Part shown: piece by piece, positions 60,732 through 62,793 of the stretch
How positions within the stretch are numbered: the first letter of the stretch is position 1
How the letters are laid out: the number at the start of each line of letters is the position of its first letter
Origin: Haloterrigena gelatinilytica
GTDB lineage: Archaea; Halobacteriota; Halobacteria; Halobacteriales; Natrialbaceae
Assembly (NCBI RefSeq): GCF_013342145.1
Contig: NZ_JABUQZ010000001.1
Span: forward strand, 2,170,001-2,234,000
Length of the DNA: 64,000 nucleotides
Direction of reading: 5' to 3'
Notes under the pieces: generated by a model
Told to the model about the DNA's origin: nothing
Database searches by the model: none
The model's input: only the letters and a program-made list of their open reading frames with translations
Made by a program: the position numbers and the translations under genes

Positions 60732-60830
60732 GTAGTCCCGGGTGGATTCGAACCGTGAAGGCTCGAATCCGCTCTTCTGGGCTCGAACCGCCGAGGACAT
60801 TCGCCGCTCGCGGAATTGCTCGCGGCAGAA
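60732..60830 (-). repeat. Tandem partial tRNA-Gln 3'-end repeat, outer unit
   Basis: About 99 nt. Reading the minus strand away from the tRNA, it has a hairpin (TGCCGC/GCGGCG), then GAGCCCAGAAGAGC, then an imperfect 10-bp stem ending in GGTTCGAATCCACCCGGGAC. The last is the T-arm and 3' acceptor half of tRNA-Gln with one change. No anticodon or D-arm, so it is not a tRNA. Confidence 0.75.
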
Positions 60831-60932
60831 GTAGTCCCGGGCGGATTCGAACCGCGAGGACTCGAATCCGCTCGTCTTCTGGGCTCGAATCCACGGGGAT
60901 ACTTGCGCCTCACGAGGTTGTTCGGCGCAAAA
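60831..60932 (-). repeat. Tandem partial tRNA-Gln 3'-end repeat, inner unit
   Basis: About 102 nt, same build as the outer unit. Hairpin TTGCGCC/GGCGCAA next to the tRNA, then GAGCCCAGAAGACGAGC, then a perfect 10-bp stem GCGGATTCGA/TCGAATCCGC (60841-60871) that includes a T-arm copy, ending in the same CCCGGGACTAC as the real tRNA. Confidence 0.8.
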
Positions 60933-60933
60933 G

Positions 60934-61036
60934 TAGTCCCGGGCGGATTCGAACCGCCGTCATGGGCTATCTTCCGTGACGGCCTGAACCGAACACGTCC
61001 AAAGGCCCATATGATTGGCCACTACACCACGGGACT
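60934..61036 (-). tRNA. tRNA-Gln (anticodon UUG) with intron
   Basis: 103 nt on the minus strand. Acceptor stem AGTCCCG/CGGGACT, discriminator A; D-arm GTGTAGTGGCCAATCAT; anticodon stem TGGGC/GCCCA around loop CTTTGGA with anticodon TTG (61002-61000); T-arm GGCGGTTCGAATCCGCC. The anticodon arm is interrupted after position 37 by about 30 nt (60969-60998, ACGTGTTCGG...GGAAGAT), which would be cut out by the archaeal splicing endonuclease at a bulge-helix-bulge. A short intron in this tRNA is known from other haloarchaea. CCA is not encoded. Confidence 0.93.
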
Positions 61037-61190
61037 TCTCACGTCGTTCGAAGTCCCGTGTGGCTCGTAAATCCTCCGGATTCACTCACCACCACGGGAC
61101 TCCTCGTTCCGCATATCCCGGCAGTTCCGACGGAACTGCTCGGTTTCACGCGACGTCACTCGAGTTGTAACGGACCGTCGCACAATAGTG

Positions 61191-61647
61191 TTACTTTTCG
61201 TCCTCGGCGGACACCGCTATCGTCCCCGCTTCGGCCCGCCGATGACAGCTTCGGCAGAGGATGACGACGGTATCCAGCGTGTGGGCGTCCTCGAGTCGGT
61301 CGAACGACCGAACGGGCTGGCAATGGTGTACGTCCGGATTTCGTCCGAGGTCGTCCCTGTCTGCCCCGCAGTGCTGGCACGCGTAGCCGTCACGCTCGAG
61401 GGCTTGCCGTCGAATCCGCCACCACTTTTGGCCGTAGTCGAATGACTCGCCTTCCCACTGATGGTGGTCGGGCCGACGACGTTCGACGAGAGCCACGCGC
61501 CGTAGCACTCGAGCGTACAGAAGGCGCCGTACGATCGGTCGCTCGAGAGGGAACGACCTCGAGGGTCGGTTCGCAGTGCTGGCAGGCAATTCCGTCCTTG
61601 TTCGACGGATAGTACGAAACCGAAATCGAACTCGGTGAACCGACGGC
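61191..61647 (-). pseudogene. Degenerate HNH endonuclease gene
   Basis: On the minus strand, pieces in different frames line up with one HNH protein: SYYPSNKDGIACQHCE (a zinc-ribbon piece, about 61610), YGAFCTLECYGAWLSSNVVG (about 61520), then an open frame DHHQWEGESFDYGQKWWRIR, ERDGYACQHCGADRDDLGRN, PDVHHCQPVRSFD, VILCRSCHRRAE, which is an intact HNH domain with its CxxC pairs. At least two frameshifts precede the HNH part, and the 5' end is lost against the aminotransferase stop at 61648. Such zinc-ribbon HNH proteins are frequent in haloarchaeal mobile regions. Confidence 0.75.
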
Positions 61648-62793
61648 TTAGAAGTAGCCTTCGTCGGCCAGCCGCTCGATGCCTTCCTCGAGTCGCTCCT
61701 CGCTCGCCGCGTACGAGATCCGCGCGTAGCCGGGGGTGCCGAACGCGCTGCCGGGGACGGTCGCGACGTGGGCGTCCTCGAGCGCGCCCTCACACCAGGC
61801 CTGATCGTCGTCGTCGACGGGGACCATCATGTAGAAGGCGCCCTCGGGTTCGGCGACGTCGACGTCGTGCTCTTCGAGCAGGTCGATGACGAGGTCGCGG
61901 CGGTCCTCGAAGGCGTCGACCATCTCGGCGACCGGCTCCTCGGTCTCGAGGGCCTCGAGGCCGGCGTGCTGGACGAAGTTCACAGCCGAAGAAACCGAGT
62001 GGCTGTGGAGTTTGCCGGCCTGGTCGATCAGGTCCTCGGGACCGGCGAAGTAGCCCAGCCGCCAGCCGGTCATCGAGTAGGCCTTCGAGAAGCCGTTGAC
62101 CGTGACGGTGCGGTCGGCCATCCCCTCGAGCGTGCCCAGGCTGGTCGGCTCGACGCCGTAGGTGATCTCCTTGTAGATCTCGTCGGAGATCACGGTGATG
62201 TCGTGTTCGACGGCCAGATCGCGGACGCCCTCGAGGGCGGCGTCGGAGTAGACGGCGCCGGTGGGGTTCGACGGCGAGTTGACGATCAGCAGTTCGGTCT
62301 CGTCGGAGACCGCGGCCTCGAGGTCGTCGAGCGCGGGCTCGAGCTGAAAGTCGGTCTCGGAGAGGTCGACGCGGGTCAGCTCACCGCCGGCCATCTTGAC
62401 CATCGCCTCGTAGGAGACCCACGCGGGGTCGAGCAGCGCGACCTCGTCGCCGTCGGCGATCAGCGCCTGGACGATCTCGTACAGCGCCTGCTTCGCGCCG
62501 GGCGTGACGATGATCTCCTCGGGGCCGTGGTCGAGGCCGTCGTCGGCGAGTTTCTCCGAGATGGCCTCGCGGAGGTCGATGATCCCCGCGGAGGTGGTGT
62601 AGCCGGTGTGGCCGGCGTCCATCGCGTCCTTGCCCGCTTCGACGATGTTCTCGGGGGTCGGGAAGTCGGGCTCGCCGACGGAGAGGTCGACGACGTCGAC
62701 GCCGTCGTTTTCGAGTTCGGTGGCGAGCGCGGAGATGGCAAGCGTTGCGGACGGTTCGACTCGGGTCAGACGGTCGGTGAATTCCATGGTCAT
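61648..62793 (-). CDS. aspC: Aspartate aminotransferase-type PLP enzyme
   Basis: 381 residues from 62793 (an ATG two codons in is also possible). Class I/II aminotransferase blocks: DLSVGEPDFPTPENIVEAG, TGYTTSAGIIDLREAI, TPGAKQALYEIVQAL, VNSPSNPTGAVYS, ISDEIYKEITYG, PLP Lys in VNGFSKAYSMTGWRLGYFAG, ISYAASEERLEEGIERL. The AspAT-I gamma-type pattern suggests transfer between aspartate and 2-oxoglutarate. It follows ribH by 8 nt on the same strand, so the two are co-transcribed. Confidence 0.9.
   Translation of the reverse strand: MTMEFTDRLTRVEPSATLAISALATELENDGVDVVDLSVGEPDFPTPENIVEAGKDAMDAGHTGYTTSAGIIDLREAISEKLADDGLDHGPEEIIVTPGAKQALYEIVQALIADGDEVALLDPAWVSYEAMVKMAGGELTRVDLSETDFQLEPALDDLEAAVSDETELLIVNSPSNPTGAVYSDAALEGVRDLAVEHDITVISDEIYKEITYGVEPTSLGTLEGMADRTVTVNGFSKAYSMTGWRLGYFAGPEDLIDQAGKLHSHSVSSAVNFVQHAGLEALETEEPVAEMVDAFEDRRDLVIDLLEEHDVDVAEPEGAFYMMVPVDDDDQAWCEGALEDAHVATVPGSAFGTPGYARISYAASEERLEEGIERLADEGYF

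Follow-up and report, generated by a model that had tools for sequence, protein, structure and literature searches.

Hairpin units that duplicate tRNA tails in haloarchaea, a candidate family of mobile cassettes of the TLR type

Behind many tRNA genes of Haloterrigena gelatinilytica lie small structured units, each of which ends in a copy of the 3′ end of the tRNA gene that it follows. We think it rather probable that these units are haloarchaeal small mobile cassettes of the kind known from E. coli as tRNA-linked repeats (TLRs), which duplicate tRNA tails and are under selection for a single-stranded fold. The original prediction, made at the tRNA-Gln gene, saw a single locus of this genome-wide system, and its interpretation was partly supported.

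The tRNA-Gln locus and the plan of a unit

The window, the 64,000-nucleotide stretch of DNA that was analysed, carries an intron-containing tRNA-Gln(UUG) gene on its minus strand at 60934–61036, which was recognized by the Rfam tRNA model (RF00005, 50.7 bits, E = 6.6e-08) and missed by ARAGORN. The sense of the units is likewise the minus strand, which corrects the original prediction, and all features of the locus are given for that strand. The last 21 nt of the gene (tail X, 60934–60954, GTTCGAATCCGCCCGGGACTA) are tRNA positions 53–73; identity falls off outside this interval on both sides, so the copied segment is 21 nt long. Unit 1 (102 nt, 60832–60933) adjoins the tRNA 3′ end directly, and unit 2 (99 nt, 60733–60831) follows it in tandem. 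Their tail copies, at 60832–60852 and 60733–60753, match the tRNA 3′ end at 21/21 and 20/21 positions, respectively, and the two extra tail copies in units of ~100 nt were thus as originally described.

Within unit 1, hairpin A (60902–60931; stem TTTGCGCC/GGCGCAAG, tandem GA/GA, AC/GT, loop AACCTC) is followed by X′ (60885–60901), a partial inverted copy of the tRNA-Gln tail (TATCCCCGTGGATTCGA against TAGTCCCGGGCGGATTCGA), and then by hairpin B (60856–60879; GAAGAC-GA-..-GA-GTCCTC, with one A·C mismatch in this unit) and the tail copy. Unit 2 has the same plan with a different stem sequence, its hairpin A lying at 60800–60830 (GCCGC/GCGGC, tandem GA/GA, GC/GC, loop AATTCC), its X′ at 60783–60799 (TGTCCTCGGCGGTTCGA) and its hairpin B at 60756–60777. 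Both of the stems that had been singled out beforehand, TGCGCC/GGCGCA and TGCCGC/GCGGCG, are present. The covariance model R1 scored 102.5 bits on unit 1, which was in its training set, and 87.7 bits on unit 2, which was outside it.

The same plan of tRNA tail X, hairpin A, inverted tail X′, hairpin B and direct copy X was found in 235 distinct units, which are ~80–110 nt long and form arrays of 1–4, with the cassette site exactly after the last base of the tRNA gene. Hairpin A begins a few bases past the tRNA end and comprises a stem, GA/GA, RC/GY and the loop AANNYC; 154 of the 235 units contain this strict motif, and the first hairpin differs in the others. Hairpin B takes the form GA-stem-C(GNA)G-stem-GA, with all four nucleotides seen at N, in 77 of the 235 bodies, compared to 1.05 in shuffled sequences. 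The tRNA-Gln units of the window differ in the loop of hairpin B and are without this form.

Although X′ is mostly clear in the T-arm half only, it is sometimes near complete, as at locus L019 (TAGTCCCGGGCGGATTCG), and it is specific for the adjacent tRNA. Its match score averaged 10.6 for its own tRNA and 7.7 for another tRNA, and the own tRNA was the top scorer in 93 of 235 units, with ~4 expected. This specificity extends to unusual T-loops, such as AATTGAA of tRNA-Gly; in one Trp unit (L039), X′ fits a different tRNA. Units in which copy X had drifted in its T-arm part separated the possible templates: X′ was closer to the tRNA in 33, closer to the drifted copy in 10, and tied in 10. Because X′ follows the tRNA and not the drifted copy, we read it as most plausibly an inverted target copy and rejected a pure RNA stem formed by X′ and X. 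The 10-bp stem that includes the T-arm copy, which had been offered as a sign of selection on structure, is therefore no evidence for it.

Distribution of the units and their closest known counterparts

To the 47 tRNA genes of the genome found with Rfam we added a 48th (Trp) from a fetched locus, and took the flanks of all of them. At least 21 of the 48 were followed by units with their own tail (copy ≤160 nt away, 0–4 mismatches of 20). When tails were tried behind other tRNAs, the mean was 8–9 mismatches of 20, and the tail copies are no chance matches. One plan is common to the units behind Trp, Val, Leu, Glu, Pro, Arg, Asp, Gly, His and other tRNAs, and all 13 matches of covariance model R1 in its own genome lay in tRNA trailers. 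A scan of the window and 30 loci with Rfam models at gathering scores returned tRNA only, with no match to RttR or any other family.

For the scan of the class we used a pattern combining the tail with the loop of hairpin A (GTTCRANTC N12-38 CGARCAA N2-4 CGYGAG), which matched 254 of 391 genomes, belonging to 57 of 86 genera; the reversed pattern gave 0 matches in every genome listed. In a draw of genomes across the whole phylum, none of 164 from outside the order contained it. Matches in named genomes fell mostly in Halobacteria, including Natrinema, Natrialba, Natronorubrum, Halorubrum, Haloarcula and Halorhabdus, and family f2 within the class had almost no matches; scattered single matches in unrelated bacteria were taken as chance. 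The unit family thus appears to be class-wide and confined to the class. Searching a phage collection with the units gave no match. A scan of IMG/VR with the pattern gave 5 matches, and because none had a second tail copy we read these as chance as well.

Two observations concern hairpins elsewhere in the genome. The idea of hairpin A as a general terminator found no support, 13 of 29 hairpin A pattern matches in the genome lying in tRNA trailers; among the others, three share one recurrent sequence, taken as rRNA, and the rest are scattered. The mini-hairpin CGAACGNAGTGAG occurs in 24 copies (reversed control, 0; L291–L305), of which ~10 lie beside tRNAs and the others are dispersed, with one (L295) apparently within coding sequence.

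The closest known kind of repeat is the TLR of E. coli (Egan and Landy, 1978; Rudd, 1999; as cited in PMC8144298). TLRs include RttR of tyrT/tyrV and RrA/RrB/RrF, and number 22 units at ten loci, where they lie behind tRNA or 5S genes and end in 18–19 bp of the gene's 3′ end (PMC8144298). In the account given there, function is explained only for the three 5S-linked units, which bind Hfq and CsrA in vitro (PMC8144298). Like TLRs, the haloarchaeal units lie directly behind the tRNA gene and end in a copy of its 3′ end, and both occur at several tRNA loci, with one to five units per locus in E. coli and 1–4 in haloarchaea. They differ in that the TLR copy includes the encoded CCA, whereas the 21-nt haloarchaeal copy does not, and in that TLRs also occur behind 5S and have bodies of 80–160 nt with other sequences, whereas the haloarchaeal units follow a large share of the tRNAs of one genome and have the hairpin A loop RC-AANNYC-GY. 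No annotated protein gene is known within the haloarchaeal units.

When examined for the haloarchaeal features, the E. coli tyrV unit had an X′ (p = 0.007), and the arg and lys units, whose bodies resemble each other, had a weak X′ (p = 0.03–0.93); the GA-stem-C(GNA)G-stem-GA hairpin was found in the lysW, lysT and tyr units. At the E. coli K-12 loci examined (L280, L284, L287 and L288), TLR units thus appear to contain an inverted tRNA-tail copy and, in some, this hairpin. We know of no description of either X′ or the GA-C(GNA)G-GA hairpin in E. coli TLRs. Because X′ in the arg and lys units was mostly non-significant singly, the cross-domain link is a shared plan, not homology: the haloarchaeal units belong to the TLR kind by plan, and we do not claim common descent. 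In the searchable literature, whose coverage stops short of subscription journals, we found no archaeal description of such units, and earlier knowledge of TLR-type repeats was limited to E. coli and its relatives. Since 1978 the origin of TLRs has gone unexplained, and a class-wide archaeal counterpart provides material to find it. The units also matter for annotation, as their tail copies are open to misreading as att sites or tRNA fragments.

Covariation and the strand that folds

Folded in the tRNA sense, units 1 and 2 had z scores of −4.95 and −3.96, with none of 200 dinucleotide shuffles folding as well; for the antisense strand the scores were −3.73 and −3.18. Across 22 units of tRNA-Gln taken from different genomes, pairing was kept in 96.4% of cells and 11 pairs had two-sided changes. 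The covariation score was 0.274, compared to 0.113 for shuffles, of which 0 of 500 reached the observed score, and the signal was lost when the partner was slid by 1–3 columns. RNAalifold, unaided, recovered the same fold. The GA/GA mismatch was present in hairpin A of 22/22 and in hairpin B of 21/22 of these units.

The analysis extended to 143 distinct A hairpins behind many tRNAs, in which stem positions 1–4 were 93–96% Watson–Crick with several pair types each, and in which the inner pair was A-T in 76, G-C in 63 and mixed in 4. As with the tRNA-Gln units, these counts come from related sequences and do not represent independent events. Over stem positions 1–7 there were 66 G·T compared to 24 A·C, an excess which suggests that it is the tRNA-sense strand that folds. 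Repair of quasi-palindromes by template switching can mimic compensatory change, but as a sole cause it is hard to reconcile with the conserved GA/GA mismatches. Together, the covariation of the tRNA-Gln units, the unaided fold and the paired A hairpins with their changing bases support the view that selection acts on hairpins A and B as folded single strands, as had been proposed from the two units of the window.

The folded strand could work as RNA or as DNA. GNA triloops, for example GCGAAGC, form extraordinarily stable DNA mini-hairpins, and one paper reportedly uses a GNA-type DNA mini-hairpin. The C(GNA)G triloops flanked by GA/GA found in the units have this DNA-hairpin signature, which, with the tandem sheared G·A pairs, leads us to lean towards single-stranded DNA as the more likely working form rather than trailer RNA. 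With hundreds of units available, the empty sites, the compensatory changes and the inverted target copy should help to decide between the two forms.

A different explanation, which we regard as doubtful, is that the units are RNA genes: a read-through trailer would be cleaved twice, at the tRNA end and behind the tail copy, to yield structured small RNAs, with selection acting on the RNA fold and the tail copy serving as the processing signal, on the model of E. coli RttR and RrA/RrB/RrF. The conserved tRNA-sense fold, with its excess of G·T over A·C and its support from RNAalifold and the shuffle tests, is what this explanation predicts, and the 5S-linked TLR RNAs of E. coli are transcribed and processed, with the tail repeat proposed as an RNase E signal (PMC8144298). 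However, the gain, loss, swapping and exchange of units between tRNAs described below would be odd for housekeeping RNA genes, the loops prefer C(GNA)G triloops over GNRA tetraloops, which is a preference of DNA hairpins, and many units start with T runs, where transcription may end.

Gain, loss and origin of the units

Comparison of congeners revealed loci that differ by whole units. The tRNA-Pro gene has two units in G000 and none in G024, and the tRNA-Arg gene has two in G000 and one in G024; the borders were exact in both cases, and at tRNA-Arg the flanks were nearly identical. Loss by recombination between tails can explain such presence and absence equally well. The order of units was swapped for Trp and Pro between G000 and another congener, G026. 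Bodies are also common to different tRNAs: 1087 pairs of units whose tails differ at ≥6 of 21 positions had similar bodies at E < 1e-6 (pairs that are not mutually independent), compared to 0 after shuffling. Arrays of at least two units are polar, the tRNA-proximal copy having 0.12 mismatches and the outermost 1.29 (29 to 1, p = 6e-6, at equal thresholds). This polarity fits addition of units beside the tRNA, although homogenisation of inner copies can look similar.

Given the empty sites, the shared bodies and the polarity, the simplest reading is that a cassette, recognised in its folded single-stranded form, inserts and duplicates 21 bp. We infer that a unit would insert at the tRNA 3′ end, beside the tRNA, and that body modules would pass from one tRNA gene to another. 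A putative trans-acting enzyme would recognise the tRNA-sense strand in its folded form, more likely as single-stranded DNA and possibly as pre-tRNA trailer RNA, and X′ would be made from the target at insertion or copied along with it. Because most X copies are local, a simple transposon without an extra copying step would fail to explain X′. Units might later acquire a role as trailer-derived small RNAs. More tentatively, we suggest that haloarchaea have an active system that writes self-adapting hairpin cassettes, with the 21-nt tail duplicated, an inverted tail copy inside and the newest unit proximal to the tRNA. If true, this would add a new kind of mobile repeat, guided by structure and copying its target, with a plan shared with E. 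coli TLRs.

Cassette insertion of this sort resembles several known systems in part. In CRISPR arrays and casposon-like insertion, as generally known, the repeat is duplicated with each insertion and fresh copies are leader-proximal, the tRNA here corresponding to the leader end; in haloarchaea, however, the place of foreign DNA spacers is taken by one shared family of hairpins, and X′ has no counterpart. REP/BIME-REPIN and IS200/IS605 palindrome-associated elements are similarly tiny, non-coding and palindromic, and are probably mobilised in trans through single-stranded DNA hairpins. Unlike the units, these elements insert without duplicating their target and show no link to tRNA tails; the 21-nt tail duplication of the units speaks against their being REP- or IS200/IS605-derived repeats. 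Palindrome-associated elements are known in haloarchaea as PATEs (PMC3119063). Archaeal integrases duplicate a tRNA 3′ segment at their att sites (PMC8371274), and the units differ from these in having a small structured body, in occurring behind many tRNAs at once and in the lack of an integrase.

The last comparison bears on the possibility, also raised in the original prediction, that the units are serial attachment sites. In that case each tail copy would be an attR left by an integrative element for which the tRNA tail served as attB, and the unit bodies would be what remains of element ends. Archaeal integration often uses tRNA 3′ ends as att sites (PMC8371274), and in two relatives large islands do lie between tRNA-Gln and a displaced tail copy: one of ~19 kb in G004 (L043/L047), with type I restriction, prim-pol/D5 and EVE-AAA genes, and one of ~8 kb in G102 (L038), with GmrSD and DNA methyltransferases. 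No integrase was found among 10 ORFs scanned, a subset of the ORFs of the two islands. The tRNA-Gln tail is thus a general hot spot for integration, used by large islands as well, but this does not explain the small units. The latter form a family of their own across the class: their single plan of ~100 nt recurs behind a variety of tRNAs within one genome and in 57 genera, their hairpins covary, their empty sites differ by one exact small unit, and they hold no integrase gene and are too short for one. The serial att part of the prediction thus has some truth in view of the large islands, and for the small units it is largely refuted and, in our judgement, improbable. Its companion claim, that the units are not just decayed attachment sites, stood, since the units are conserved in relatives, and we rejected pure decay in view of the units behind many tRNAs, the covariation and the empty sites.

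It also appears quite unlikely that the units arose by a mutational process only, in which foldback template switching copies the tail to give X-A-X′-B-X and tandem duplication and recombination do the rest, with no mobile element and little selection. Such a process would account for the alternation of X, X′ and X with hairpins between them, for an X′ that tracks the tRNA rather than the copy and can be a nearly full-length inverted copy (as at L019), and for a mirror-like arrangement at tRNA 5′ ends. However, hairpin bodies are alike across tRNAs and genera and so were not made anew each time, template switching would erase the GA/GA that is invariant in hairpin A of the 22 tRNA-Gln units, and Gln units have been retained across genera despite differing downstream flanks.

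The mirror-like arrangement is present in the window itself, in the 5′ leader of tRNA-Gln (61037–61101, minus strand), where a copy of the tRNA 5′ end (61090–61101), a hairpin, an inverted copy (61052–61061) and a second hairpin precede the tRNA. Mirror-like 5′ units occur in the genome at Gln and, upstream of the tRNA, at Glu and Gly (L060, L056 and L076), and in relatives several stand in tandem (L008, L009, L014 and L021). Behind a tRNA-Leu gene (L054, G000:C1:490921-491005) there is a longer repeat, which includes part of the tRNA, from the anticodon arm on, and has a hairpin inserted in the T-arm. Identical tandem genes for tRNA-Gly and tRNA-Asp (L062 and L080) lie 393 and 357 nt apart, respectively, and each second copy has a unit. 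Close relatives differ in whether tRNA-Gln(UUG) has its intron (L023, L028, L041, L042 and L045 versus L001). Directly upstream of tRNA-Gln in the window, a minus-strand ORF (61191–61793) contains CQHCG...HHCQPV...CRSCHRR, which by eye resembles an HNH endonuclease, and similar sequence adjoins tRNA-Gln in many relatives.
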